Below are positions 206-52,800 of a DNA stretch of 64,000 nt, piece after piece. The stretch lies in contig WHVD01000012.1 in NCBI GenBank assembly GCA_015178975.1, forward strand, positions 434,001-498,000, given 5' to 3'. The stretch comes from Hysterangium stoloniferum (taxonomy: Eukaryota > Basidiomycota > Agaricomycetes > Hysterangiales > Hysterangiaceae). Positions within the stretch are counted from its first letter, which is position 1, and every line of letters begins with the position of its first letter. A model generated the notes under the pieces. It saw only the letters and a list, made by a program, of their open reading frames with translations. It ran no database searches and was not told the origin of the DNA. Both the position numbers and the translations under genes were made by a program.

Positions 206-984
206 GTATACCAAATTCTAATATACTCTAAAGGTCATTTAAACATCTGAGATGTGATTCAAACATAATTTGGTTTTTAAAACTTTTTGAAAGTTTTAAA
301 CTCTCTCATACATTACAAACTCAAGAATCTTTCTGGACACAAGTAGACAATAAAAAAAATTAGTAGTTTGAAACACTAATACTTTTAAAAAATAGATACC
401 TTTAAATAGTCCATTCCATGCATATGTATATCATTGGCACCTCTAAATACATATGTATTACTTCAGAATAGATCTGTCAATCTAAACAGATTTCTACTTG
501 ATTCAACATACCCAGAATATATAGGGGGTTTTACTTAATAAAGACAGCTGTGGTATGAAAAATTTCCAATAATATTTTACATATTTTACAGGGAAATAAC
601 TACATTACAACTTTTAAAAAACAAGTACTAATAAAAGTATTAGTAGACATCTGTAAAAGGAAGGAAATTATATACAATAGAATTTGTTAAATAACTATGG
701 GTTGTATAAGATGTAATATGGAGAACTATTTCTGATGGTTGTTTTTTGATGATATAATTGTTTCAGAATAGATATCACTATTTAAAGATGGAGTTTTGTA
801 AAAATAAGACTTTTATTAGTAAATATTTGAGATTATAGTAATTATAAACACCCTCCTAAGCTGAAGCCAAGTCCTACTGGATTTCCCACAGGTTTCCCCA
901 GAAACCCTCCATGTACACACCCTTAACAGTATTTTCTGACTAAGACTCGCAGATTGTTCAATATACCACCAAGAAGAAAAGCAC
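206..984. other. AT-rich stretch without recognisable gene
   Basis: Strongly AT-rich DNA with many short A and T runs and stops in all frames. It lies between the Copia fragment and the Gypsy pol relic. I see no LTR pair, tRNA or coding exon. It may be the degraded flank of either element. Confidence 0.6.
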
Positions 985-3697
985 ATGCACAGGCATCATT
1001 ACCTGGACTGTCAACTCTTCATTCCCCACTTCCCAGCCAGACACTCACAAACCAGCCAGATGCCACAGAAGAAGCCTGTATCAAATAAGTCCTGGAAAAC
1101 CAGGATGAATCTGAGCATGAGGATGAGTCCGTGGCCCCCAACAAGGGCAAGGGTGTCATTGCCTCTCCACGCATTCAAGAGCTTACCCATCTCAATGCAT
1201 CTGCTCTTTCGCATTCTGATTCATTTTTTCGTTAAACTTAAGTCTAATATGATCCCAAAATTTGTTTTTTCAGCTCTTATAGATTTCGGCTCGACTCATT
1301 GTTTTTTAGATACAAAATTCATGCAAAAAAATTTGTTGTCAACTTATCCAATTAATCCCGTTGGCCTCAGCCTCTTCGATGGCACAAGTAATTTGGTTGT
1401 TACCCAAGCTTGTGATTTATCCATCTGTTTCCTGTGTGGAACAACTCAATTGGTCACTTTCTATGTGACCCAGTTAGACTCGAGTTGCTCGGTGGTCCTA
1501 GGACACAACTGGCTTACCCGCTACAATCCATTGATTGACTGGATAACTAACAGTATAACATTCCGGACCACCGTGGCAGCTGAGGAAACTGTTCCTGTCA
1601 TGGCATCCACAGCACCCATGGCCTTCCTGGCACCTGCAGTCTCGAGGACTCCTATGATCCCTATGGCACCCATAGCTTCCCCAGAACCCACAGCACGTCC
1701 GTCTATTTCTCTGATTAATGCTGCAACTTTTATTAGGGCTACAAAAATGGACAGGTCCCAGGCGTTCACTATCAACTTAAAAATTGATGAAGCAACTGTA
1801 CGTTTTTCAACCCCGGTATCTGAATCTGAGCAAGCCACTGACCTAGAAGGTGTCCCGGAGAAATATCATGACTTTGCAGATGTTTTTAGCAAGCGGATAG
1901 CTGACCGGCTTCCGCCCCACAGAGAATACGACTTAAAAATCGATCTCGAAGATGGCACCCAGCCACCCCTAGGACATATCTACCCACTCTCGTTCACAGA
2001 ACTTTCCGCAATCTGTGATTTCCTTGATGAACATTTCTCCATAGGTTTTATCAGACCCTCAAAGTCTCCTTTTGGAGCACCTGTTCTGTTTGTCAGAAAA
2101 AAGGATGGATCCCTTCGACTATGTGTTGGTTTCAGAGGCCTCAATGCTATCACCAAAAAGGATAAGTATCCACTCCCACTTATATCTGATCTGCTTGATG
2201 CTCTGCAGAATCCCCGGATTTACACCAAAATAGATCTCAAACACGCCTATCATTTGGTCTGGATTGCCACGGGCAATGAATGGAAAACCACTTTTAGAAC
2301 CCATTATGCGGCCTTTGAGTGGTTGGTGATGCCCTTTGGACTCACCAATGCTCCGTCTGTTTTTCAGCGTTTTATCAACAACATTTTCTCTGACATGCTC
2401 AATGTATGTGTTATTGTTTACTTGGACGACATTCTTATCTACTCTGAGGACCCCGCAGAACACAACAAACAAGTCCATGATGTTCTCTGGAGACTCAGAC
2501 AACATAGTTTATCCATGAATGATAAAAAATGTACTTTTAACACGGACTCAGTGGAATACCTGGGTTTCATCATCGGACCCGATGGAATGGATGAAACTAA
2601 AGTGCAAGTCATCAATGATTAGCCTGAACCCCAAAAAGTCAAAGATATACAATCCTTTCTCGGCTTTGCCAATTTTTACTGTCAGTTTATCCATGGATAT
2701 TCCAACATCACAGTACCCCTTACCTGCCTTATGCATAAGGTTACTCTGTGGAATTTTAATGATAAGTGTCAAAAAGCTTTCAATCTTTTAAAAAATCCTT
2801 TTTCCTCAGCTCCTATTCTGTTGCATTGGAAACTGGACTTCCCGCTCATTGTTGAAATGGATGCCTCGGATTATGTGCTTGGAGCCATTCTGTCTATCCA
2901 GGACTCTGATGGAGAAGTCCACCCTGTGGCTTTTCTGTCCCAGACCTTTACCAGAGCAGAGCTCAACTACAACATTCATGATAAGGAACTCCTGGCACTT
3001 TTTTCAGCTTTCAAAGCATGGCGACACTATTTGGAAGGCTCGGGAACTCCGATTGACGTTGTAACAGATCACAAAAACCTGGAATACTTTTCTACCACAA
3101 ACCTTTTGACCCATTGGCAGGCCCGCTGGTCTGAATATCTATCTGCTTTCAATCTGATTATCCACTTTCGACCCAGCCATCTTGGCGGCAAACCCGAACA
3201 CTTTAACTAGACCATGGGATGTCTATCCTAAAGAGGGGAGCAACGACTATGCCATGGTGAACCCGCACAACCTGAAACCTATTTTCATGAATCAACAACT
3301 TACCACATCGGTCCATGCAACTTTCCTCATCAATCCCATTGTCCATGGAATTATCATTATGGATATCGAGAAGTTACACCAAGATATTCTATTGGCAATT
3401 CCGTTAGACCCGATTACTAAAGCTCACCTTGACAATCCCACAGACCCCAATCAACAGTGGTCTCTTGATCAGCATGGTTTCATTAGACTTGATGATCAGA
3501 TCTATGTACCGGACTCCGACGGCCTCCGCCTCAGGATCCTTCAATACAAACATGATCATCCACTCTCAGGACATTTCAGGTACAACAAAACTCTATCATT
3601 AATAAGAAGAGAATATACTTGGCCCGGACTCTGTGGATTTGTTAAGCACTATTGTAAACCTTGCTCTACTTGTCCCCACTTGAAATCTCAGCGACTC
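985..3697 (+). mobile_element. Ty3/Gypsy pol relic, copy 1 (protease-RT-RNase H-partial integrase), inactivated
   Basis: Pol-like coding sequence. A retropepsin-like segment (ALIDFGSTHCFLD) lies near 1275-1315; the usual D-S/T-G triad is DFG here, so the active site looks lost. RT spans about 1960-2600 with the catalytic YLDD box at 2419-2430. RNase H (VEMDASDYVLGAILS) begins near 2850, and the H2C2 zinc finger of integrase lies near 3550-3690. Three lesions are visible: TAG at 2620-2622 where copy 2 (57958-61425) has tryptophan; a +1 frameshift near 3196; and loss of similarity after about 3697, removing the DDE integrase core and chromodomain. LCVGFRGLN replaces LCVDFRGLN of copy 2, and two codons are missing near 2585. 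No gag or LTR was found. Reading starts at 985 only because the frame opens there; the first ~80 codons are not recognisable. Confidence 0.85.
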
Positions 3698-3751
3698 TTA
3701 CTGAAATCCCTGCCAACACTTGGATTATTCAAGGCCCACCTCTTAAGCTAG

Positions 3752-4830
3752 TGAATTAATCAAGTACAAGCACACAAGAAAATCCAATATAAATTATTTT
3801 CTCTATTAATAAATTATTTAAAATATCTATTAATAGTTATAAATAAGTATACAAGAAACCAAAGCTTTATATCAAGTCTCTGCTAAGTTACTGTACATAC
3901 ATATACTCAGCTTCTAGCCCCTGTTCTCAAGGAATAGTTGTTTATTTGCTAAAAGAGTTACATATTGCTCTTTTGAACCTTTCAACAATCAAAATAAGCA
4001 TTGATTTGAATTGTTTAAGCTTAATAGTGCAGCTCATTAATCTATCAGTATTTAAATTACTGAACCTTTGCTTATTTTATTGTTGAAGCTCTGTAACACT
4101 ATAGCATATATTGAGCTATCTGAGAGAAACCCCTAAATACATTACAATTATGAAGAATGTCTACAAAACTATATCTTGCATCTTTGAAGCCATTTTGAGG
4201 TATTCTTGGCAGTCATGACACTGTGTGGCACTTTCCCATGGCCCTAGCTTGAGTGGGTTGGAAAGACTGTCAGGTTTTCCTAAACCAGAGAATCAAAGAA
4301 TGAGAGTGCTGGAGGTGGGGGAGGTGGATAAGCAGGTATTTGTAGAGAGGTCAATAAGCAACACAAGTACACAGGAGGTCAAAGGTTCAAGTTTGGATAA
4401 GGTAAATGTGCAAGTTGCATCACAGTGTGTATATACATATACCAAATGCAGGATCAGAAAATTGGACCATAACACCCCCACCAAGAGAAAAGAGATTCCC
4501 ACTGACAACTGGAAAAATACAGGTTCTCACAGCCAAATTGGAATAGTTCTGTTTGCAAAGCATAAACCAGAACTTGCAGTTGGGCTGCTTAGGACAGTTT
4601 CTGTTGACACAAAAAAGGCCTGAAGGCCAATCAAGAAGCAAATACCATGCTGCCAGGGGTGATACTGTACATATCTGACTCAGGCATTCTTCTGCAGTAA
4701 ATATAAAAAGTGGCACTTGACATTGCTAGACAGTATATACATGATACCATAGATCAATACAAGGAGCAAATTTCTTTGAAGCTGTACAATAGCCCTCAAG
4801 GACACTGAATAAACTCCACCCAACTCAAAT
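3752..4830. other. Non-coding AT-rich flank with a short inverted repeat
   Basis: No convincing gene. A small foldback lies at about 3979-4091: TTCAACAATCAAAATAAGC near the left end is nearly complementary to GCTTATTTTATTGTTGAAG at the right end. A 98-codon open frame on the minus strand (4420-4716) and an overlapping 132-codon plus frame (4225-4623) show no family signature. The minus frame lies downstream of the ankyrin gene and array, so it could be a 3' exon or UTR of that transcript, but its phase does not fit the array's last predicted splice. Confidence 0.4.
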
Positions 4831-4872: not shown

Positions 4873-4916
4873 CTAAAATATGGAGTTTAGACTCAGATTT
4901 TGTGCAAATCAATGAG

Positions 4917-7900
4917 ATTTACTTTCTATTGATTGGAGGGAGGGAGTAGTGAATATTGGGCATGAGAAGAACAGGATGGTACTTACATGCTGATGGACCA
5001 GAAGACCAGGAGGGAACAGGTCAAGACTCAGCCATTGAAGTGTATGGCCTATAAACCAGCACGTACCCCCTGTTGGGAAGAGACCATTACCTTCAGTTTA
5101 CAGTATACATCTGGTGGCACTTACTGTCTGTCAGTTGAGGAGAGAGTGCATTTGTCAGCCTTCCCCATGCAGTATGGATGTGACAGCACTTACTACCTGT
5201 TGTTTGAGGAGTGGAAGGGAGCATTTATCAGCCTTCAGTATGTGGGATGGATGTCACAGCACTTACTCTCTGTTGGTTAAGGAGGGGAAGGGTGCACTCA
5301 TCACCCATCAGTGTGCAGGATGCATGTGACAACACTTACTGCCTGTTGGATGGGGAGGGGAAGGGTGCATTTGTCAGCCTTTGGTGTGTGGGGTGGACAT
5401 CACAGTGCTTACTCTCTGTTGGTCAAGGAGGGTAAGGGAGCATTTGTCAGCCTTTGGTGTACAGTATGAATGTGACAGCACTTACTGCCTGTCAGGTGCG
5501 GAGGCAAGGGAGCATTTGTCAGCCTTTGGTGTGTGGGATGGATGCCACAGCACTTACTCTCTGTTGGTCAAGGAGGGGAAGGGAGCATTTGTCAGCCTTT
5601 GGTGTACATACAGTATGAATGTGACAGCACTTACTACCTGTCAGGAGAGGAGGCAAGGGAGCATTTGTCAGCCTTCAATGTGCAGTATCCATGTGGTAAC
5701 ACTTACAAACTATTGGTTGAGGAGGGGAAGGTAGTGTTTGTCAGCCTGCAGCTTGCACTGGGCATGTACCAGAGCTTACTGACTGTTGGTTAAGGAGGGG
5801 AAGAGAGCATTTCTCAGCCTTGAGCATGTCAGATACATGTGGGGGCACTCACATCCTATCAGTTGAGGAGGGGAAGTGGGCATCCATCAGCCTTCAACAT
5901 GCAATATGCATGTGGCAGCACCTACTTCCTGTCAGTTGAGGAAGGGAAGGGAGCATTTATTAGCCTTCCTTGTGTGGGGTGCATGTGACAGCACTTACAC
6001 TCTATTGGTTGGAGAGGGGAAGGGAGCATTTGTCAGCCATCATGTGCAGTATCATGTGGCAGCACTTACAAACTATTGGTTGAGGAGGGGAAGGGAGCAT
6101 TGTCAGCCTCCAGCATACAGTATGCATGTGGCAGCACTTACAAACTATTGGTTGAGGAGGGGAAGAGAGCATTTCTCAGCCTTCAGCATGCAGTATACAT
6201 GTGGGGGCACTTACATCCTATCAGTTGAGGGGAAGGGAGCATCCATCAGCCTTCAGCATGCAATATGCATGTGGCATGGCAGCACTTACTTCCTGTGAGT
6301 TGAGGAGGGGAAGGAAGCATTTGTCAGCCTGCAGCATGTGGTGGGCATATAACAGGGCTTACTTGCTGTTGGTTAAGGAGGGGGAGCATTCCTCAGCCTT
6401 CAGGATGTGGTGGGCATGTGGGGTACTTACACCCTATCAGTTGCAGATGGGAAGGGAGCACCATCAGCCTTCAGCACACAGTATGCATGTGGCAGCACTT
6501 ACTTCCTGTCAGTTGAAGAGGGGAAGGGAGCATTTGTCAGCCTCCAGCATACAGTATGCATGTGGCAGCACTTACAAACTATTGGTTGAGGAGGGGAAGA
6601 GAGCATTTCTCAGCCTTCAGCATGCAGTATACATGTGGGGGCACTTACATCCTATCAGTTGAGGGGAAGGGAGCATCCATCAGCCTTCAGCATGCAATAT
6701 GCATGTGGCATGGCAGCACTTACTTCCTGTGAGTTGAGGAGGGGAAGGAAGCATTTGTCAGCCTGCAGCATGTGGTGTGCATATAACAGGGCTTACTTGC
6801 TGTTGGTTAAGGAGGGGGGAGCATTCCTCAGCCTTCAGGATGTGGTGGGCATGTGGGGGTACTTACATCCTATCAGTTGCAGATGGGAAGGGAGCACCCA
6901 TCAGCCTTCAGCACACAGTATGCATGTGGCAGCACTTACTTCCTGTCAGTTGAAGAGGGGAAGGGAGCATTTGTCAGCCTTCAGTGTGCAATGTGCATGT
7001 GGCAGCACTTACTTCCTGCCATGTGAGGAGGGAAGGGAGTATTTTTCAGTGTTCAGCATCCAGTCTGCATGTGACAGCACTTACTCTCTATTGGTTGAAG
7101 AGAGGAAGGGAGCATTTATCACCCTGCAGCATGCAGTGTGCATGTGGCAGTACTTACAAACTATTTGTTGAGGAGGGGAAGGGAGCATTTGTCAGCCTGC
7201 AGCATGCAGTAAGCATATAACAGTGCTTACAGCAGCCTATTGGTTAAGGAGGGGGGGAGCATTCCTCAACCTTCAGGATGTGGTGGGCATGTGGGGGTAC
7301 TTACATCCTATCAGTTGCAGATGGGAAGGGAGCACCCATCACCCTTCAGCACACAGTATGCATGTGGCAGTACTTACAAGCTATTAGTTGAGGAGAGGAG
7401 GGGAGCAGTTGTCACCCTTCAGTATGTAGTATGCATGTTTTCACACTTACATCCTATTGGTTGAGGAGAGGAAGGGAGCATTTGTCAACCTTCAGTGTGC
7501 AGTGTGCATGTAGCAGCACTTACCCGCTATTGGTTGAGGAGGGAAAGGGAGCATTCATCAACCTTCAGTGTGCAGTGTGCATGTAGCAGCACTTACCCGC
7601 TATTGGTTGAGGAGGGAAAGGGAGAATTTGTCAACCTTCAGTGTGCAGTGTGCATGTAGCAGCACGTACCCACTATTGGTTGAGGAGGGAAAGGGAGCAT
7701 TTGTCAACCTTCAGTGTGCAGTGTGCATGTAGCAGCACTTACCCGCTATTGGTTGAGGAGGGAAAGGGAGCATTGTCAGCCTTCTGCATGTGGGATGCAT
7801 GTGACAGCACTTACAAGCTATTGGTTGAGGAGAGGAAAGATGCATTTGTCAATGATCACCATGTAGTATGCATGTGGCAGCACTTACAAACTATTAGTTG

Positions 7901-10900
7901 AGGAGAGGAAGGGAGCATTTGTCAACCTTCAGTGTGCAGTGTGCGTGCAGCAGCACTTACCCGCTATTGGTTGAGGAGGGAAAGGGAGCATTTGTCAACC
8001 TTCAGTGTGCAGTGTGCATGTTGCAGCACGTACCCACTATTGGTTGAGGAGGGAAAGGGAGCATTTGTCAACCTTCAGTGTGCAGTGTGCATGTAGCAGC
8101 ACTTACCCACTATTGGTTGAGGAGGGAAAGGGAGCATTGTCAGCCTTCTGCATGTGGGATGCATGTGACAGCACTTACCTGCTATTGGTTGAGGAGGGAA
8201 AGGGAGCATTCGTCAACCTTCAGTGTGCAGTGTGCATGTAGCAGCACTTACCCACTATTGGTTGAGGAGGGAAAGGGAGCATTCGTCGACCTTCAGTGTG
8301 CAGTGTGCATGTAGCAGCACTTACCCGCTATTGGTTGAGGAGGGAAAGGGAGCATTTGTCAACCTTCAGTGTGCAGTGTGCATGTAGCAGCACGTACCCA
8401 CTATTGGTTGAGGAGGGAAAGAGAGCATTTGTCAACCTTCAGTGTGCAGTGTGCATGTAGCAGCACTTACCCGCTATTGGTTGAGGAGGGAAAGGGAACA
8501 TTGTCAGCCTTCTGCATGTGGGATGCATGTGATAGCACTTACAAACTATTGGTTGAGGAGAGGAAAGATGCATTTGTCAATGATCACCATGTAGTATGCA
8601 TGTGGCAGCACTTACAAACTATTAGTTGAGGAGAGGAAGGGAGCAGTTGTCACCCTTCAGCATGTAGTATGCATGTTTTCACACTTACATCCTATTGGTT
8701 GAGAGGAAGGGAGCATTCATTAGCATTCAGGACACATGTGGCAGCACTTACTCTCTGTGAATTGATGAGGATTTGTCAGCCTTCAGCATGTGGTATACAT
8801 GTAATGGCACTTACTATCTGTAGGCAAGGAGGGGAAGAGAGCATTTGTCAGCCTTCAGCTTGCAGTGTGCATGTGGTACTTACCCACTATTAGTTGAGGA
8901 GGGGAAGGGAGCAATTGTCAGCATTCAGCATGCAGTATGCATGTGACACCACTGACTCTTTGTTCATTGAGGAGGGGAAGGGAACACTTGTCAGCCTTCA
9001 GTGTGAAGTATGATGTGGCAGCACTTACTACCTGTCAGTTGAAGAGGGGAAGGGAGCATTTGTCAGCCTTCCATACATGAGATGCATGTGACAGCACTTG
9101 CTCTCTATTGGATGAAGAGAGGAAGGGAGCATTTATCACCCCTCAGCATGCAGTGTGCACATGGCAGTACTTACAAACTATTAGTTGAGGAGGGGAAGGA
9201 AGCAGTTGTCACCCTTCAGCATGTAGTATGCATGTTTTCACACTTACATTCTATTCATTAAGGAGGGGAAGGGAGCATTTGTCACCCTTCAGCATGCAGT
9301 AAGCATGTAACAGTGCTTACGGCCTATTGGTTAAGGAGGGGATGGGAGCATTTGTCAGCCTTCAACATGTAGTATGCATGTGACAGCACTTACAAACTAT
9401 TGGTTGAGGAGAGGAAAGATGCATTTGTCAACCATCACCATGTAGTACATATGCATGTGGCAGCGCCTACCCGCTATTGGTTGAGGAGGGAAACGGAGCA
9501 TTGTCAGCCTTCTGCATGTGAGATACATGTAACAGGACTTACTGCCCATTGCTTAAGGAGGGGAAGGGAGCATTTGTCAGCCTCCAGCATGCAGTGTGCA
9601 TGTGGCACTGCTTACCCACTATTGGTTGAGGAGGTGAAGGGAGCATTTGTCAGCCTTCCATACATGGGATGATGTGACAGCACGTACTCCCTGTTGGTTG
9701 AGGAGGGGAAGGGAGCATTTGTCAGCCTGCAGCATGTGGTGGGCATATAACAGGGCTTACTTGCTGTTGGTTAAGGAGGGGGGAGCATTCCTCAGCCTTG
9801 AGGATGTGGTGGGCATGTGGGGGTACTTACACCCTATCAGTTGCAGATGGGGCACCCATCAGCCTTCAGCACACAGTATGCATGTGGCAGCACTTACTTC
9901 CTGTCAGTTGAAGAGGGGAAGGTAGCATTTGTCAATTTTCCACACATGAGATGTATGTGACAGCACTTACTATCTGTATGTAAGGAGGGGAATGGAGCAT
10001 TTGTCAGCCTTCCATACATGGGATGATGTGACAGCATGTACTCCCTGTTGGTTGAGGAGGGGAAGGGAGTATTTGTCAGCCTGCAGCATGTGGTGGGCAT
10101 ATAACAGGGCTTACTTGCTGTTGGGTAAGGAGGGGGGGAGCATTCCTCAGCCTTCAGGATGTGGTGGGCATGTGGGAGTACTTACATACTATCAGTTGCA
10201 GATGGGAAGGGAGCATCCATCATCCTTCAGCACACAGTATGCATGTGGCAGCACTTACTTCCTGTCAGTTGAAGAGGGGAAGGGAGCATTTGTCAGCCTT
10301 CCATACATGAGATGTATGTGACAGGACTTACTCTCTATTGGTTGAAGAGAGGAAGGGAGCATTTATCAGCCTTCAGCATGCAGTGTGCATGTGGTAGTGC
10401 TTACCACCTATTGGTTGTGGAGAGGAAGGGAGCATTGTCAGCTTTCTGTGTGTGGGATCCATGTGACAGCACTTACTCTCTGTTAGTTGATCAGGGAAAG
10501 GGAGCATTCATTACCATTCATGACACGTGGTAACACTTACTCCCTGTGAATTGATGAGAATTGTTCAGCCTTCAGCATGTGGTATACATGTAACAGCACT
10601 TACTGTCTGCATATAAGGAGGGGAAGAGAGCATTTGTCAGCCTTCAGCTTGCAGTGTGCATGTGGTGGCACTTACAACCTCATGCAATATGTTTCCAGCA
10701 GCCCTTTCTTCCTGTCAGTTAAAAGGGAGCCTTTGTCAGCTTTTGATACATGGGATGCCTGTGACAGTACTTACTCCCTATTAGTTGAAGAGAGGAAGGG
10801 ACCATTTATTAGCCTTCAGTGTGTAGTGTGTGTGGTGTGGTGCTTACCAACTATTGGTTGTAGAGGGGAAGGGAGCATTGTCAGCTTTCTGTTTGTGGGC

Positions 10901-12504
10901 TGAATGTGACAGTACTTACACTCTGTGCATTGATGAGGGGAAGGGAGCATTCATCAGCATTTGGGACACATGTGACAGCACTTACATCCTGTTAGTTGAT
11001 GTGAAGGAAGCATTTGTCAGCCTTTCACTTGCAGTGTGCATGTGGCACCACTTACCCACTATTGGTTGAGTAGGGAAGGGAGCACTTGTCAGCATTCAGC
11101 ATGCAGTATGCATGTGTGGGACCACTGACTCTCTATTCATTGAGGAGGGGAAGGAAGCATTGGTCACCCTTTGGCATGAAGTATGCATGTGACAGTACCT
11201 ACTTCCTGTCAGTTGCAGAGCATTTGTCAACCTTCAGCTTACAGGATGCATGTAACAGCACTTACTACCTTGGCAGCACTTAACCACTATTAGTTGAGGA
11301 GGGGAAGGGAGCAATTGTCAGCATTCAACATGCCTATGCATGTGATATCACTGACTCTCTGTTCATTGAGGAGGGGAAGGGAACACTTGTCAACCTTCAG
11401 TGTGAAGTATGCATGTGGCAGCACTTACTTCCTGCCAGTTGAAGAGTATTTGTTAATTTTCACCATGCAGTATGCATGTGGTGACACTTACTTCCTATCA
11501 GTTGAGGAAGGGAAGGGTAGATTTGTCAGTCTCTAGAATATGCATGTGAAAGCACTTACTGCCTGTTCCTTGAAGTGATTGCAGCATTTGTCAGCCTTCA
11601 GTCTGCAATCTCAATGTGACAGCACTTACTCTCTGCTGGTTGAACAGGGTAAGGGAGCATTGGTCACTCTTCAGCCTATACTATACATGTGGCAGCACTT
11701 ACATACTATTGGTTTTTTTTTTTTGGGGGGGAGCATTCATCAGCCTTTAGGGCAGTATGTATGTAACAGGACTTACTGCCTGTTGGTTGAGGGAAAAGGA
11801 GCATCTGTCAGCCTTTAATATGCAGTATGCATACAATGGCACTTACTTCCTGCCAGTTGAGGAGGGGAAGGAAGCATCTGTCTGCCTTCAGTGTGTAGTA
11901 TGCATGTGGCCATACTTACAAACTATTGGTTGAGGAGAGAAAGGCAGCATTTCTCAGCCTTCAGTGTGCAGTATGCATGTGTGACAGCACTTACTCTCTG
12001 TTGCTTGAAAAGGGGAAGGTAACACCTGTCAACCTTCAGCATGAAGTATGTATGTGGCAGCACTTACTTCCTGTCAGTTGGGGAGGGGAAGGGAGCATTT
12101 GTTAGCCTTCAGCGTGCAGCATACATGTGGTGGCACTTACGTTCTGTCATGTGAGTATGGGAAGGGAGCATCTGTTATCATTCAGCATGCAGTATGCATG
12201 TGGGAGCACCTACTCCCTGTTGGTTGAGGAGGGGAAGGGGCATTTCTCAGCCTTCAGTGTGCTGTATTCATGTGGCGGTACTTACAAACTATTGGTTGAG
12301 GAGGGGAAGGGAGCACTTGTTAACCTGCAGCATCCAGTATGCATGTGGAGGCACTTACAAACTATTGGTTGAGGAGAGGAAGGGAGTGTTTGTTACGCTT
12401 CAGTGTGGGGTACGCATGCGGCGGCACTTACTTTCTGTTGGTTGAGCAGGCAAGGTAGTATTTGTCAGCCTTTCCCGTGTGGTGGGTATGTGGATAGCAC
12501 GCAC
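4917..12504 (-). repeat. 73-bp tandem array: ~105 intron-like units separated by 3-nt variable slots
   Basis: Read on the minus strand, each unit is GTAAGTGCTG..CACATGC.., then an ACTGAAGGCTGAC segment with a CTGAC branch-like site about 31 nt before the end, a C/T-rich tract, and CCAATAG, CCAACAG or CTGAYAG. Exactly three bases follow before the next GTAAGT. Example spacing: introns 12435-12504, 12362-12431 and 12289-12358, each 70 nt, with slots 12432-12434 (AAA), 12359-12361 (TTT) and 12286-12288 (TTT). By hand count about 85% of units keep GTAAGT. Most others are GTACGT, GTGAGT, GTAGGT, GTCAGT, GTAAAT or one GCAAGT; about three lose it. The 3' end is YAG in all but about three or four. 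The slot shows about 26 different triplets and no stop. One slot has six bases (7231-7236). The leftmost three units (slots 4923-4925, 4987-4989, 5067-5069) are diverged and differ in length. Plus-strand open frames across the array are by-products of the repeat. Confidence 0.9.
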
Positions 12505-14514
12505 TGCATTCACATTCTTGTTCAATAGTAGATCAAATAACTCCCGACTCTGTAACCACCCTGCCACATCAAGTGCCGTTCCAAAGGGGAGGCCTATATA
12601 CCACCTTAAATTCTTTCATTGACTGACAGTACACAGCACTTACATGCACAATCTGCCCCCTGCGGATTTTCGTCTAGTAGCAGTTGAACCATCTCCTGGT
12701 CGTTCTTGAGGACCGCAACATGAAGTGCGGTGCCAAAGGGCCCTATTGTGTATCAGCGGTGTTTGCCTTCTAGCTGCAATCCACCTACCGATCAGCGTCA
12801 GATTTGCGGCGTGTACCTCAATCAGGCGGCGAACAATATCACGTCTACCATTTGCTACTGCCGCACAAAGAGCACTACCATAGTCCCCTCCTAGCCTTAA
12901 ATCAGCGAAAGATACTTCCCCTTGCCGGCTCACCACCATTCACCTTCGACATCCACACATGCCTCTTTTTCAATCAGTAGGTCTACAACGTCCTGGTGGC
13001 CCCTCATAGACGCAATCTGAAGTGGTGTTCCAAAATCTCCACCTGAAACATTGGTCCCATTTACGTTATACACATTCATAGACCAAATTTATAGACGTAC
13101 CAGCAGCGTTCACAAATGCACGTCTATTCTCCTCCATCCTGAGAAGAAATTCCACCAGGTCTCGCTTGCCATAATACGCCGCCAACTGAAGAAAGTTTGA
13201 GAATTGCCCTGTAATTGATTTCTGCCGATTGGCCCCGTCATTGACCAGCTGTTCGAGATCTCTTACAATCTCTTTCACCGGCTTTGCCTCAGCGGCAATT
13301 TTGAATACTTGTTCAAATTGCTGCTGAAAGCGTTCTTGAATACCTCGAATTGCATTCCAAGCATCCCGGAGCGGCACAACGAGGAGTAGGAGCGCAAGGA
13401 TCTGACCAAATCCCCATTGGCCTTCCGAGTTGTCGATTTGATTCACCTTGTTCCGACGAAGCGTGAGTTCAACGTCGACAATGAAGAGAAGATTGATGAC
13501 CACAAGGCACGCTAGGCCTACAATCAAGAAGGCAGTGTGAACTGGATGATCTAAATTGGCGGGCGTTTGGGAAGGGGGTGAGATGCGAGATGGGGTCTGA
13601 TTAGATGCTGATGGATCGCTAGGTCCTGGCGGGTATGAATGCTCTGAATTGGTGGGCGTATGAGAAGATACTCTTGGAACACTAGATACCCTAACCGCTG
13701 AGAGGGCTGTCAACGGATCCCAAAGCCGTCTGTGTTGTTTCCGAGAATAGTTATACCCGATATGTAGACCGAGGAAAAAGAGGAAAGGGGGAAGAAGATT
13801 GAAGCCGGGGATGAGAAGAAGAAAATACATCGTCAACGAGAAGATGCGGAGTGGAGTGGAAGAAAAGTTAATGGGGGCTCCAAGCACGGCTAGGGTGGGA
13901 CCGGAATCGCAGAAAATGGGCGTGCCGAAGTTGGCAGGATTGAGCCAAAGCCATATTCCGATGACCGACATGAGAGAGAGGTGAATTGTGCCGAGAGTGA
14001 GTACTGGCACTGCGGTAGCAAGGGAGAAAAGGCTTCGGACAAAGCCCCAAAGGCGAGTGGCTATGGATTGTTGTTCTCCCGCGGCTTCCTTTCGACGAAG
14101 TACATGGGCAATAGGTGACCAGAGAATGACCCGCCAGGCTGACCACGTAGGATCAGTGGGCTTGTAGTCTATGGTGCTCCTCTGATGGGCATAAAGAATG
14201 AACCAGATCCATGTACTTGTATTGTTCATCCAACTGAGATCGAGCACGATGGCGGCGTGGAAACTGGATATGGCAGGACCCTGGCTTCCAGGACCTTTTG
14301 CCAGAATGATGGTGGTAATAAGAATGGAAAATGCGACGGCGAGCATACCAATAGACTGGTCCCTGATACCTGCCAATTCATCTCGAGTGATTTTCTTATC
14401 CCACAAGTAGACGAAAAGGGGTACGAAGCAAAGGAGATTTTGTGTGTAAATGGCAGCACGAACACCGATGCCAGAGATATCTGGATTGGCGGGAAGGCAT
14501 TTGTCGAGGTCCAT
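12505..14514 (-). CDS. Multi-spanning membrane protein with C-terminal ankyrin repeats, one repeat per exon
   Basis: Model: join of 14514-13101, 13042-12944, 12890-12789, 12742-12644, 12593-12505 on the minus strand, 601 codons before the array. The start ATG (14512-14514) begins MDLDKCLPANPDISGIGVRA; the open frame extends 38 codons further upstream without similarity. Exon 1 has about seven hydrophobic segments (including LLCFVPLFVYLW, SIGMLAVAFSILITTIILA, TAFLIVGLACLVVINLLF), a Ser/Pro-rich loop, then the first ankyrin-like unit (FLQLAAYYGKRDLVEFLLR). Exons 2-5 each encode one repeat: GTPLQIASMRGHQDVVDLLI, GSALCAAVANGRRDIVRRLI, GTALHVAVLKNDQEMVQLLL and GTALDVAGWLQSRELFDLLL. Introns are 46-58 nt; exons 1-4 all end in phase 1, exon 5 in phase 0 (...NVNA). 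The final donor GTGCGT opens the tandem array. Ankyrin repeats bind proteins; the partner and role are unknown. Without splicing at 12504 the frame would stop at 12400-12402. Confidence 0.8.
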
Positions 14515-18472: not shown

Positions 18473-19511
18473 ATGGCTGACGGAGAAGCTCTTCTCTCCA
18501 TTTCTTCAGAGACAGGTCTTGATCAGTCAGCTATTCAACAAGGAACATCCAATGCCTCCCAAGTTGAAGTATCTCCACATGAATGGAAGACCCAGTCCAA
18601 TTCTGAGCATAAAGAGACAAAGTATAAATACGCCGTAATCTCCTTCATCCGTCATGCACAAGTGAGGACTGTGTTTCCCTCTTTTTCTTCTCTTTTTTTT
18701 CTGCCCATTTATCTCCATTTAATAGAGCGAGTCAAATGTCAACCCGCGCGTGGACGCTGGCAAGGCAGATAAATTGACGGCAAAGGGCCAAGACCAGGCT
18801 AGAAAACTTGGCCAAGAATGGGCCAACGTTCGCATCGACACTCTTTGTTCCTCTGACTTTGAAAGAGCAAAGGCGACCGCGCAGGCCATTGTAGATTTTC
18901 ATTCTAGCACGCTGGAATTGAAGAAAACGAGCTCGCTTAGAGAACAAGATCATGGACCAGAAGTCGCACAGCATATGCAACGGGGTGATTTTTACGGAGC
19001 ACAGAGGTTGCGCAGTGGCGGTTACTCACCTGCCAGTGAGGATGGGCGGTCCTATCGTCCACCTGGTGGAGAATCTGCAAATGACGTTGTTTCCCGGGCA
19101 GTCTTGATGCTTCAGTTGGCGGTCCTTGTACTAGGCCGTGAGCTTCCCTCACCTCCTCCAGAGTTGCTTGATAAAGGCCCTCGCGAGCGTCAGCCCGCTG
19201 ACCAACTTCCTGATGGTGTCCCCCATATCGTCTTTGTCAGCCACAATATTCTTCTTGTAGAGCTGTATGAAGCACTACTATCCTGGGAGGCAGAAAAGCA
19301 TCGCTATCTGTGGGTTGATTACCACAATACAGAATGGTATTGGTTGCTTCTTAAACCGTTTTATGCTGTTAATGCATATATCTACAGGTCACGTTTCATC
19401 GTTGGCACAGGAGATAGCCCTTTGGAAAGCCCACAGGGATACTATCAAAAGACTTTCGATTTCGATTTGATCGTTAACTGTCTGAAACCCGTCCATCGCC
19501 GCTTCGACTAG
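18473..19511 (+). CDS. Histidine phosphatase superfamily (phosphoglycerate-mutase-like) protein
   Basis: Two exons, 18473-18661 and 18726-19511, separated by a 64-nt GTGAGG..AATAG intron; the product is 324 aa. The intron splits the active-site motif: exon 1 ends ...VISFIRHAQ and exon 2 begins SESNVN, giving the RHxxS/TxxN phosphohistidine motif. Further family marks are LTAKGQDQARKLG, SSDFERAKATAQAI (the arginine that helps bind phosphate), LREQDHG and VSHNILL, which carries the second catalytic histidine. The fold (branch 1: phosphoglycerate mutases, fructose-2,6-bisphosphatases, many broad phosphatases) uses a phosphohistidine intermediate. The substrate cannot be inferred; the cytosolic architecture lacks a signal peptide. 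The start was chosen because no earlier in-frame ATG gives a sensible extension. The gene is flanked by copies of a dispersed repeat. Confidence 0.88.
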
Positions 19512-23623: not shown

Positions 23624-24456
23624 GCTTTTTTTTTTTTTTGGTATATTTGTATCCCGCTTCAAGTAACAAGGACTAACTGCGGCCAGGGGCATGGTGTCCC
23701 CACTAAACTATGCTACGGAATTACAAAGTTCCGAGTGAGCTACATGGGTATGAGGGATTTTGGTGGGAGGGAAGCAGTCTGGGTTTTCGGTGTGAGGTGG
23801 GAAGTGGGGGTTGTAGGCACAAAAAGAAAGAGACACAAGAGGATAATACAAGCATGCGAAGGGGATATAAGTACGCGAAAGAAATACAAATAGCTAGAAG
23901 GAGACTTTTCTGTGTCCAGGAGATAGCAGGCGTAGGTCAAGCGGGAGGTCCGTGGCAAGGTAGGGGGCCTCTAGGGTGGGTCGTGAGTCTGTGTGGTTTC
24001 AGGCATGCCAGGTTGGGTCGAAATGGGGTTCTGAGGTCTGTTAGGCTGTTTCGCAAAGGCAGCAGTTTGGCAAATGAACTTAGAAACCGCCCTGAGCCCC
24101 GACTTCGTGCCCAAGAGGAAGGCTAGGTCGAGTCCACGCGAGACCTTGCGCAGGAGGGAGCGGTGTCCTTCAAAGAGGGAGCAGCTGGTGAGGATGTGTT
24201 CGCGCGTCTGGAGAGGTGCGGAGCCACATGGGCAGGCAGTGGAGAGGTTGGGAAGAAAGCGAGAGTAGTACTCCCCAAGGAAGCCATGCCCGGTGATTGC
24301 TTGGATGGACCAGAGCTGAGGCATTCGAGTGCGGTTTGGCGGCCCAATCGCTGCCCCATTTTAACTGAGCGGACTTTGGCCCTTTCCCGGGCCCAAGTGA
24401 TAGTCGAGTACAGTACTGGCCTGGCAGAGGTGCCTGCTTTGCCAGCGTGTCGGCGA
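23624..24456 (-). mobile_element. 5'-truncated LINE (non-LTR retrotransposon) 3' end
   Basis: The minus strand reads the C-terminal end of a fungal LINE ORF2. It includes an RNase H-like piece (RVADTLAKQA in one frame, STITWARERAKVRSVKMG in another) and QAITGHGFLGEYYSRFLP, then a CCHC-like cysteine cluster (ACPCGSAPLQTREHILTSC) and RKVSRGLDLAFLLGTKSGL. Frames change, so it is inactive. It ends with ATACAAATATACC and an A-tail (T-run at 23626-23639 on plus). An 11-bp identical duplication CACGTGACATA lies at 23613-23623 and 24457-24467, fixing both ends of the insertion and showing that it arrived already 5'-truncated. Confidence 0.8.
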
Positions 24457-49800: not shown

Positions 49801-52800
49801 GGGGTTATGAACAGCGGCATGAAGAGGTTGCACAACTTCTGTTTATGTCATACTGTTTTAATGCTACAATCACACAAGATCCTAAGTCCAGATCAAAGGT
49901 CATTGAGCCTAACCTTTCGCTGACATTCCACTGTGGAGCTGTTTCCTTTGCAACGTTCGAACATCAATTGTCAGTATCGGACTCATCTAGCAATGCCATC
50001 ACATCAGGGCCGGTTCATATGTCGTATCGATGCAGGACCCAAACCGCCAAACTGTTACCCACTAAGATATCCAGTCTTACCCCGGTGACCTATTACCCAG
50101 AGGTAGAAGCAGCTACAGTTCGACACCATGTCTTCTCTGTTACCAACGATGATATTCGTATCACGATACATCCTAACTTTATTGTATTTCTGCAACGTTT
50201 GTTGCCTCTCCACGGCAAATATTTCCAGCATACATCCAATAGACCTGTCGGAGTGCCTATATCTCTCGATGTCAAAGACCAACCAACAGACAACTACTGG
50301 GAATTATTTTTGGCAACAAAGCAGATTCAAGTTCAAGCTGCAGTAGAAGGGATGGTTCTCGAACTAGGTGTATCCGAAGTCAATCTTGCCATGCCTATGC
50401 TACATGGTATGGCCTCTCGCACCCACTCAAGATCACGCCCGTATACCTCAGGAAGTGGACTCATAAGACTGGCTCAATTATATACCCGAGTTAGACAAGC
50501 GCATGACAAGGCGAATCCTTTCAGTCATGGGGATAAAGAAGCCCTTGCTGGCCTTGTGTTGTCACGCATCACCCTACACCTAGGTGGTAATATCAGAGGG
50601 GATCTACCTCCTTCTATTCATGCCATGCTTGCAATGGAGAGCTTGGTTCTAAGCGTACCGCGTAGCGCTTTGTTAACGTACCAACTCATTGAAGAGTGGC
50701 GAATACAGTACTTACCGTGAGTGCTAATCTTCTTTCGACGCATGACGATAATTAATCGAGAAATGTGATAGAAATATACACCTGATGACTCAGGAGTTGT
50801 TATCGGAGTTGCGGAAGCGCCAACAGACAGCTTCGAAGAACATTTCAAATCAGTCCAGGCTGCGGCCTTCATCCCCAGCAATTGACTTTCAATTTTCAGT
50901 TCAGAGAGTAGGTTCACTGTTTCAAGTCATGCACGGGACATGGTTTTCATGGGATGTTCATAAAATTGTTGGTTTCTTCCGCACTACTGTGACCAGTACA
51001 GCAAATTCGGGTTGTTCCTTTGGGGTGCAACTGGCATCACAGTTAATCAACATTGGGGCGAGACCAGATCATAATACGGGACAGGCCCTAAAAACAATAA
51101 AGATTGCATTACCTTCCTTTCAGGCGTCTGGGAATTACGATGGACTGAAACTACGATCTCATGCTGTCATCGATCATTTTTCTCTAACTCTGAAACCGAA
51201 ATATATGGATGAAATCTTGGTTGTCCAGCACAATTTAGGCACGCACTTCTACGATGTTTTAGATCTCATATCCGAAAATCGTAGTCGCCGAAGAGTCTTA
51301 AAGAGATCCACTAAGGTTTCGGAGCCAATCAAGTATGATGTAGCCTTCATGCTAAGCGGCTTTCGTATTGGCATTGAGGGTCCAACCAGCACGCTGGATT
51401 TGACATCAGCGAAGATGACAGGTACCGCGAAAAATGATGCCAATCTTATTTGGGACTTCTCGGTGTCTAACTTGGCTTTGGCTCTATCTCATCATTCGGC
51501 CGGAATTTCATCACATCCTGAGTTCGACCGCAGTTTAAGATCCGCCTATATGGTCCTTGACGTAAAAACAAGTATCTCGTCGAACATCAGAACAACAGAT
51601 ACTCCTTTGTTGGATGTCCTTCATTTGCAAGTCAGTCGGATGCATGCTGTAATGTCTCCAAATTCTATAGGCGAGTTGGGTGACTTAATTGATCACGTAC
51701 AAGTAAGATAGTGGTAGTGTTCATAATATTTTTACTCATATTTTTCACAGGCAGAAATGCATTTACGACAAGAACAGCGAGCTTTAGAGCTTCAAGAAAT
51801 CAAGCAAAAGACGCAGCGTGTTATACGAGTTTTCGATGTTCAAAAACCGACCGCGTCTTTGCAGCGATCTTCGTCTTTCCTTGATAAGCGTATGGTATTA
51901 ATCGAAGTTGGCGACATCGGTGTTGCTTTTCCGCTAGCCCTGAAAAATGAGATTGAAGTTGACGCAATAGGATCTGTTCCAGCTTTCTTATTGTCCATAA
52001 AGTCCGCCTCATTTTCTATCAAAAGAAATGAGTCTGGTCAAGCTTCAATGGGCCGCCTGTCTTTCCAGTTTGTGAATCAGTACGTTCTCCATTTGGCCTT
52101 TATAAAACTAGAGTGCTTATGTGGTTTTAGATTTGACCAGTCTCAATCTTCCCAATTCGATGGTGATCAACACAAGAGCCGCAATAAACTCCTTTATCCA
52201 GAAATGGAAGCAGCATTTCGTTCATCGACTTCATCAACTACGCGACATTGGCAACTTGCTGCTCGAGTAGATGGCTTTAACTTAGACCTGGATCCTGCAA
52301 TCGTGGATAATGTGTTCAGCTTAATTACTGTATATCGTAAGGGAAAGGAGCGTGTTGACAAACTTACTCGCATGCCATCCACGGAGAAACCAAATCCTCC
52401 GCAAGCCGTTGTTCCAACAGCTTCAATCACGGCCAGCTATCACTCAATAAAAACTTCTCACATTATCATCAATCTAATGTTCCAAGGGGGAAGGCTCTGT
52501 CTTCGTGGCATGGATTCAGAATACCCAAATACGTCACCTCAATACAACGAGTCATCAGACGGGAGCCGAGACTCCGACGCGGAAGAGATCATCATGTTCC
52601 CTTCCATCACTGTATGGGGTGAATACCGTGCAACACCTGCTGCCACCAAACTATCTAGTACTGATGAAGTAGAAAATTCGGCTCTCATATTCAGAAGTCA
52701 GATTTATCCAACGATCAACCGAATAAGGCCCTCGATATTTGCCTTCCTCATAGGTTTTACTGAACGGATTGAAGATCGTTTGGGTCGCGTCGGGTCAGAA

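Follow-up and report, generated by a model that had tools for sequence, protein, structure and literature searches.

The 3′ part of a gene in the fungus Hysterangium stoloniferum seems to consist of about 100 exons of one codon each. The gene, which is of the membrane-protein type, lies on the minus strand of the window, by which we mean the whole 64,000-nt stretch that was analyzed (GenBank assembly GCA_015178975.1, contig WHVD01000012.1, positions 434,001 to 498,000; coordinates are those of the window unless a contig is named). Behind its last ankyrin exon stands a tandem array of intron-like units separated by slots of 3 nt. The best explanation for this arrangement, and one that we hold to be quite probable, is that the array is spliced and makes up the 3′ portion of an ankyrin-repeat gene of the membrane type. 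Support comes from the anatomy of the units, the phase of the slots, the absence of stop codons, the constraint on donors, acceptor AG and branch A (subject to the ascertainment bias described below) and the faster change of the slots in most comparisons. Transcription, splicing, sequential order, slot skipping and the function of the array are predicted from these features. A first-pass annotation of the window had placed about 105 tandem units here. Its coordinates and count were confirmed, and the one-codon, frame-neutral slots and membrane-type host protein that it proposed are supported at the sequence level. The features of the gene and its array are as follows.

13101..14514, minus strand: exon 1, with the start codon, a mostly helical hydrophobic domain and the first ankyrin part, ending in phase 1 (GT..AG gene model, homologues).
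12944..13042, minus strand: exon 2, 99 nt, phase 1-1, ankyrin repeat (GT..AG gene model, Pfam scan).
12789..12890, minus strand: exon 3, 102 nt, phase 1-1, ankyrin repeat (GT..AG gene model, Pfam scan).
12644..12742, minus strand: exon 4, 99 nt, phase 1-1, ankyrin repeat (GT..AG gene model, Pfam scan).
12505..12593, minus strand: exon 5, 89 nt, the last ankyrin exon, with a phase 0 end and the donor GTGCGT (gene model).
12435..12504, minus strand: intron 5, homologous to the array units.
4923..12434, minus strand: the array, 104 three-nt slots and one six-nt slot between intron-like units mostly of 69-70 nt (scoring matrix, TRF).
7236-7231, minus strand: the sole 6-nt slot seen, GCTGCT, which keeps the frame.
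4893..4925, minus strand: candidate terminal exon, if unspliced further, AAA GTA AAT CTC ATT GAT TTG CAC AAA ATC TGA.
4589..4600, minus strand: alternative terminal exon, AAA CTG TCC TAA, preceded by CAACAG, a good acceptor.

The first array intron starts at 12504, and the slots run from 12434 down to 4923. Because the scoring matrix calls the 104 three-nt slots and misses the 6-nt one, the total is given as about 105; the 6-nt slot was left out of every slot statistic. Flanks are canonical ([CT]AG before, G[TC] after) at 100 of the 104 slots, while the four broken junctions start at 11286 and 10711 (donor) and at 9545 and 8959 (acceptor). Most donors are GTAAGT (76), followed by GTAAGC (10), GTACGT (5) and others (13), and the acceptors are divided between TAG (55) and CAG (47), with 2 broken. 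Within the window there are 47 matches to GTAAGT-N45-75-AG-NNN-GTAAGT-N45-75-AG-NNN-GTAAG, all of them in the array on the minus strand, and 100 shuffles produced none. For several of the tests the array was pooled with two others found elsewhere in the genome (described below); 6 of the 222 introns fell outside 50-85 nt and were removed before the entropy and sister-pair analyses. Among the remaining 216, a YTRAY branch-like motif 15-45 nt from the 3′ end is present in 149, at a modal distance of 32 nt; shuffled introns with the motif averaged 55 and never exceeded 71 over 200 rounds. The spliceosomal anatomy that had been ascribed to each unit is thus borne out by these counts. The end of the gene can be drawn in two ways: the candidate at 4893..4925 and the alternative at 4589..4600 both have similar counterparts, as judged by eye, in the array copies on two other contigs (C542 and C209), and the AAA that opens the former could instead be an additional slot with the donor GTAAAT.

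Exon 5 ends in phase 0, so each later slot corresponds to one whole codon, and frame 0 is predicted independently of the slots themselves. The 225 slots of the three arrays contain no stop in this frame, compared with 11 and 26 of 222 in concatenated frames 1 and 2. Since the units are related by descent, slots were also simulated on the unit tree, which gave probabilities of 0.20, 0.038 and 0.007 for zero stops when slots changed as fast as introns, twice as fast and three times as fast; with 33 distinct slots observed, the threefold simulation comes nearest (mean 31.5). The 104 slots of the window comprise 26 distinct triplets, the number that the first-pass annotation had given approximately, and none is a stop. 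C is found at the third slot base in only 2 of 205 cases, as expected beside a donor.

Variation peaks exactly at the slots. Their three columns have entropies of 1.84, 1.89 and 1.53 bits over 216 units of the three arrays, and none of the 70 intron columns exceeds 1.4. The equal entropy that would have marked a plain repeat was therefore not seen, and the slots vary beyond what a homogenized repeat allows, as had been claimed. When sister units were paired by their preceding intron only, the three slot bases differed in 25, 22 and 13 of 99 pairs and the introns at 5.5% of positions; 35 of the 36 changed slots alter the amino acid. With both flanking introns controlled (65 pairs), differences were counted at 17/195 slot bases and 303/8821 intron bases (p=5.6e-4), and all 14 changed slots are non-synonymous. 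Among such pairs from the same array the difference is larger (9/60 vs 83/2744, p=1e-4). A further comparison could be made between the window's contig, hereafter C24, and C542, one of the other contigs of the same genome, which are referred to below by C numbers of this kind. Across 47 collinear slots of C24 and C542, 10 of 141 bases differ, which exceeds both the gene's exons (44/1797, p=0.0045) and its synonymous sites (10/438, p=0.014). Overall, slots change at roughly 2-3 times the rate of flanking introns or of the gene's own exons, the intron comparison not always being significant. We therefore regard diversifying change at the slots as likely, on moderate evidence.

Parts of the splice signals seem to be under constraint. 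Donor columns differ at 11 of 588 positions in 99 sister unit pairs, compared with 193 of 3192 for other columns (p=6e-6), the acceptor AG at 3 of 196 (p=0.004) and the branch A at 0 of 97 (p about 0.004). The donor and AG tests are biased towards constraint because the units were found partly by those very sites. When units were sought through the middle of the intron alone, the three arrays yielded 103, 97 and 24.

Several results weigh against the spliced array or against selection on its slots. Taken jointly, the three acceptor columns (13/294, p=0.30) and the whole branch motif (28/489, p=0.84) show no significant conservation, in addition to the bias just mentioned. The 224 units of the intron-middle scan include 19 with no called 3′ site and 10 with no called 5′ site, many of the missing calls stemming from variation in unit length. 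If slots evolve at the intron rate, their lack of stops is unremarkable (P=0.20). Cross-array pairs with both flanks controlled show no significant slot excess (8/135 vs 220/6077, p=0.16), nor do the collinear C24/C542 slots when set against introns (10/141 vs 144/3724, p=0.073), and against C209, the most distant array, the first 10 slots differ at 4 of 30 bases and the introns lying between those slots at 14%, again no excess. A search of the protein database with the slot-coded tail gave 68 candidates and none at E≤10, and no Hysterangium protein is present among the 120 homologues listed, of 202, for the part of the gene before the array. Finally, reading on from exon 5 into intron 5 meets no stop for 34 codons, and the gene could therefore end without the array.

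This last point bears on a reading in which the array is a minisatellite, whether transcribed or untranscribed, grown from the last intron, to be skipped as a single large intron or bypassed by an mRNA that ends within intron 5. The tandem period of 73 found by TRF, with its higher-order periods of 146, 218 and 364, would suit such an origin, as would the four broken junctions. A minisatellite of this kind does not account for the lack of stops in frame 0, the frame that exon 5 sets, for slots of exactly 3 nt in 104 of 105 cases, for variation that peaks at those slots or for constraint on donor, AG and branch A. We accordingly consider it quite improbable; as the principal reading, a plain minisatellite was rejected on the phase, stop, entropy and constraint tests, and it is kept here as a rival.

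The slot excess itself could be mutational or recombinational, caused by hypermutable junctions or by conversion of introns without their slots, instead of by selection for diversity. This possibility deserves to be taken seriously, at somewhat less than an even chance. A CpG-type change, CGG/TGG, accounts for two of the 14 changed flank-controlled pairs; turnover of units in the middle of the array is clear; and 16 of the 36 changed slots in the single-flank sister pairs differ at two or three bases, as if the introns had been converted alone. The non-significant comparison of collinear slots with introns points the same way. However, the excess survives the control of both flanking introns and also the removal of the CGG/TGG pairs (p=0.004, with full intron counts kept), and the collinear slots change more than synonymous sites of the same gene. 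The diversification proposed in the first-pass annotation is thus moderately supported: slot changes exceed those of the gene's own exons and nearly all alter the amino acid, but in the collinear subset they do not significantly exceed those of introns.

Similar arrays are found in two other copies of the gene, with 97 slots on C542 and 24 counted slots on C209. The C209 count leaves out two junctions whose matrix score did not exceed 5, and since one of them (TAT) looks genuine the number is about 25; the contig ends shortly afterwards in telomere-like repeats. The slot peptides begin with KFFGNERFEAYR in C24, KFFGKERFEAYA in C542 and KFFENERFEVYR in C209. All three arrays begin with the order KFF[GE][NK]ERFE[AV]Y, in which some codons have changed synonymously (AAA/AAG, AAC/AAT). 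The end ARARVTGHK is common to C24 and C542. Gain and loss of units have made the middles of the arrays different between copies, and chemically different stretches result: content is RWRWQWWRFLRWRR-like in the window and VFFVFWRVFFAVAVVF-like in C542. The earlier description of the slots as hypervariable consequently applies between units, but the ends of the arrays are largely conserved between copies. From 4135 to about 29100 the window is collinear with C542:174882-197609, at 94-99% identity outside the array and with gaps, and C24:429159-434188, another stretch, 5 kb long, on the left side of the window, is about 98% identical to C542:168264-173259. Both outer flanks differ, and window positions 50000-52000 have no second copy. 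The collinear stretch may be a segmental duplication or a second haplotype, making the two genes paralogues or alleles.

A fourth copy, on C507, has decayed: foreign sequence interrupts it, and of the slots just the first ones (N F F) are left. Its homologous intron 5 matches the array unit model with E=1.7e-11. Intron 5 is thus a unit of the array family, from which we infer that an intron together with 3 nt of exon was duplicated in tandem to form the array, intron 5 being the likely template. By eye, the C441 copy resembles the gene up to exon 3; no array was found there or in a distant relative on C97. In another distant relative, on C201, four junction-like matches follow one another; three of them fall at the boundaries of an ankyrin-like exon that is repeated, and the run was dismissed by eye as chance. 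This exon is repeated at about C201:632660-633206, with a period of 155 nt at the first two copies, and its ends mimic the slot pattern.

All unit matches, at least 103 in number, fall at copies of a single gene family, spread over four contigs. The GTAAGT pattern matched 124 times in the genome: 47 on C24, 41 on C542, 13 on C209, 1 on C507, 21 in a 21-bp repeat and 1 on C124 (part of the C542 matches was counted directly from its DNA, and the sum reaches the full 124). The four copies of the array gene family account for 102 of these. Matches on C13, C223, C377 and C520 were rejected as arrays, being a GTAAGTCGGGGGTTGTAGGTT-like 21-bp tandem repeat that mimics the donor-acceptor pattern by chance. 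No further gene family of this kind was found with the GTAAGT pattern and introns of 45-75 nt, a search that other donors or lengths would escape.

Telomere-like arrays of TTTAGGG, the plant-type repeat, run from C209:68568 to the contig end and occur also on C97, C65, C125, C186 and C196. They stand at the very end of C209 and C97, and the C209 slot array lies within about 1 kb of them. The usual fungal telomere repeat is TTAGGG.

In the mechanism that we propose, a segment made up of one intron of about 70 nt and 3 nt of exon would have been duplicated in tandem until about 105 mini-introns stood in a row with one codon between neighbors. The spliceosome would remove them one by one, aided by near-perfect GTAAGT donors. 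Removal is probably sequential, as an exon of 3 nt is too short for factors to occupy its two splice sites simultaneously; each ligation would add one codon and expose the next donor. With every slot included, the protein would end in a tail of some 105 residues, among which R, F, E, W and D are frequent. In principle any donor could be joined to any later acceptor, and skipped slots would give shorter tails that stay in frame, so that a single gene could encode many different protein tails. Over evolution, gain and loss of units and the accelerated, mostly non-synonymous change of slots would reshape the tail, which likely serves as a variable interaction or recognition surface on the ankyrin protein, by analogy with what has been proposed for the NACHT-ANK genes of Tuber.

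Alternatively, all slots may be included constitutively, giving one fixed tail of about 105 residues whose diversity arises only between copies or strains by unit turnover. The slot order is kept at both ends between C24 and C542, the donors and acceptors are mostly strong with no sign of regulated sites, and mis-splicing would be costly because 196 of the 216 introns of the three arrays give an in-frame stop when retained. On the other side, general knowledge of splicing makes it unlikely that a hundred successive 3-nt exons are joined without skipping, and excerpts of papers on fungal immunity invoke alternative splicing for the Tuber microexons. We regard a strictly fixed tail as rather unlikely.

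The part of the protein before the predicted tail was analyzed as a 601-aa spliced product. A Pfam scan assigned it to the ankyrin families PF12796 (E=7.8e-21) and PF00023 (E=1.9e-16), gave a non-significant match to DUF5708 and found no NACHT domain; the array genes overlap none of the 38 NACHT places listed in the genome. The AlphaFold model of exon 1 is mostly helical (mean pLDDT 76), and strongly hydrophobic stretches lie near residues 54-72, 169-189, 224-252 and 328-346. A fold search with this model found no PDB match at E≤0.001. The named ones among the homologues of the 601-aa part come from Mycena and a few other mushroom genera, all of which we take to be Agaricales. Ten aligned homologues stop near the last ankyrin repeat or continue with more repeats, and nothing resembling the slot-coded tail was seen by eye in the last 70 residues of the 120 listed. 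The array gene may be unannotated in the database, or annotated at a length outside the range of the homologue search. A neighboring gene (ORF 18726-19511) does match an H. stoloniferum database protein, at 100% over 78% of the query.

Exon 1 is 44-62% identical to 30 relatives, with named Mycena proteins at 46-54% and unnamed metagenome proteins highest; identity to its own distant relatives on C97 and C201 is 39-51%, in pieces. The patchy distribution of these relatives makes transfer possible. Between C24 and C542, pN and pS of exons 1-5 are about equal (0.025 and 0.023), and the ratio is lower against C209 (0.083 and 0.124), which suggests that the membrane-ankyrin part too may be under relaxed or positive selection.

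Hysterangium is an ectomycorrhizal fungus that fruits underground, and in this truffle-like habit resembles Tuber. Excerpts of papers citing Iotti et al. 2012 describe NACHT-ANK (nank) genes of Tuber melanosporum with tens or dozens of codon-sized, 3-bp microexons, with alternative splicing of these as a possible source of diversity in the recognition part (PMC9815663, PMC4986451, PMC10197012, PMC3689799). As far as sequence can show, the Hysterangium gene works like these: both encode a fungal ankyrin-repeat protein with many 3-bp exons, here predicted ones, at the C-terminal part. Unlike the ascomycete Tuber, its host is a basidiomycete (order Hysterangiales); it has a membrane-type domain and no NACHT; the GTAAGT pattern shows three arrays in the genome, in contrast to an expanded family; and the window array has about 105 slots where the excerpts speak of tens or dozens. 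Because it lacks NACHT and belongs to another phylum, it is not a Tuber nank gene, and identity with that family was rejected. Codon-sized microexon arrays as a kind are thus already known from T. melanosporum; relative to those accounts, what is new is the other phylum, the lack of NACHT, the larger number of slots and the measured excess of slot change. The two cases are probably convergent, with a real chance that the convergence across phyla is a striking one. A broader picture, in which two truffle-forming phyla either acquired codon-by-codon arrays downstream of ankyrin repeats separately or exchanged them, as a splicing-based repertoire of fast-evolving interaction tails carried here by an ankyrin protein anchored in the membrane, with slots under diversifying selection and the C24 and C542 contents possibly allelic, is in our view unlikely as a whole.

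The first-pass annotation had named schistosome micro-exon genes (MEGs) as the nearest analogy, in place of which the Tuber genes are much closer. The abstract of the 2012 report by Iotti and colleagues reportedly makes a comparison with schistosome MEGs as well. Strings of very short exons are common to the MEGs and the Hysterangium array, and MEG exons preserve the frame. One account of the MEGs (PMC10526429) gives exons of 3-81 bp, introns of up to 5 kb and secreted products, whereas the Hysterangium gene has uniform 3-nt slots, introns of about 70 nt and an ankyrin membrane-type protein with an N-terminal hydrophobic helical domain. It thus has neither the long introns nor the secreted product of an MEG. 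Very short fungal exons are also described in excerpts on P450 genes of Phanerochaete chrysosporium, likewise a basidiomycete, where the shortest exon is 6 bp (PMC1184071), and on Trichoderma Xlr2, a microexon in a single gene (PMC11121469); a tandem one-codon exon array is not met in these accounts. No tandem one-codon-exon case in a basidiomycete was found in the open PMC literature, subscription journals being outside that scope.

Introner elements are many near-identical introns from one source, dispersed over many genes. The Hysterangium units are likewise near-identical and of one source sequence, but by unit matches and pattern search they are tandem within one gene family. If the slots are spliced in, the gene would be a second fungal case of diversification by one-codon exons, in a distant phylum and on a different class of protein. 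It would provide a test of whether ankyrin proteins in such fungi repeatedly evolve one-codon exons, of how the spliceosome handles about 100 successive 3-nt exons, and of post-transcriptional diversification of single receptor-like fungal genes. Further cases may have gone unnoticed, since exons of 3 nt are seldom called by gene predictors.

Two other elements lie near the gene. Open frames at 940-3751 on the plus strand end beside the 3′ end of the array, and are presumably a Ty3-type retroelement with protease, reverse transcriptase, RNase H and integrase parts. On the minus strand, the ORF at 23971-24360 resembles the C-terminal part of what we take to be a LINE-type element.

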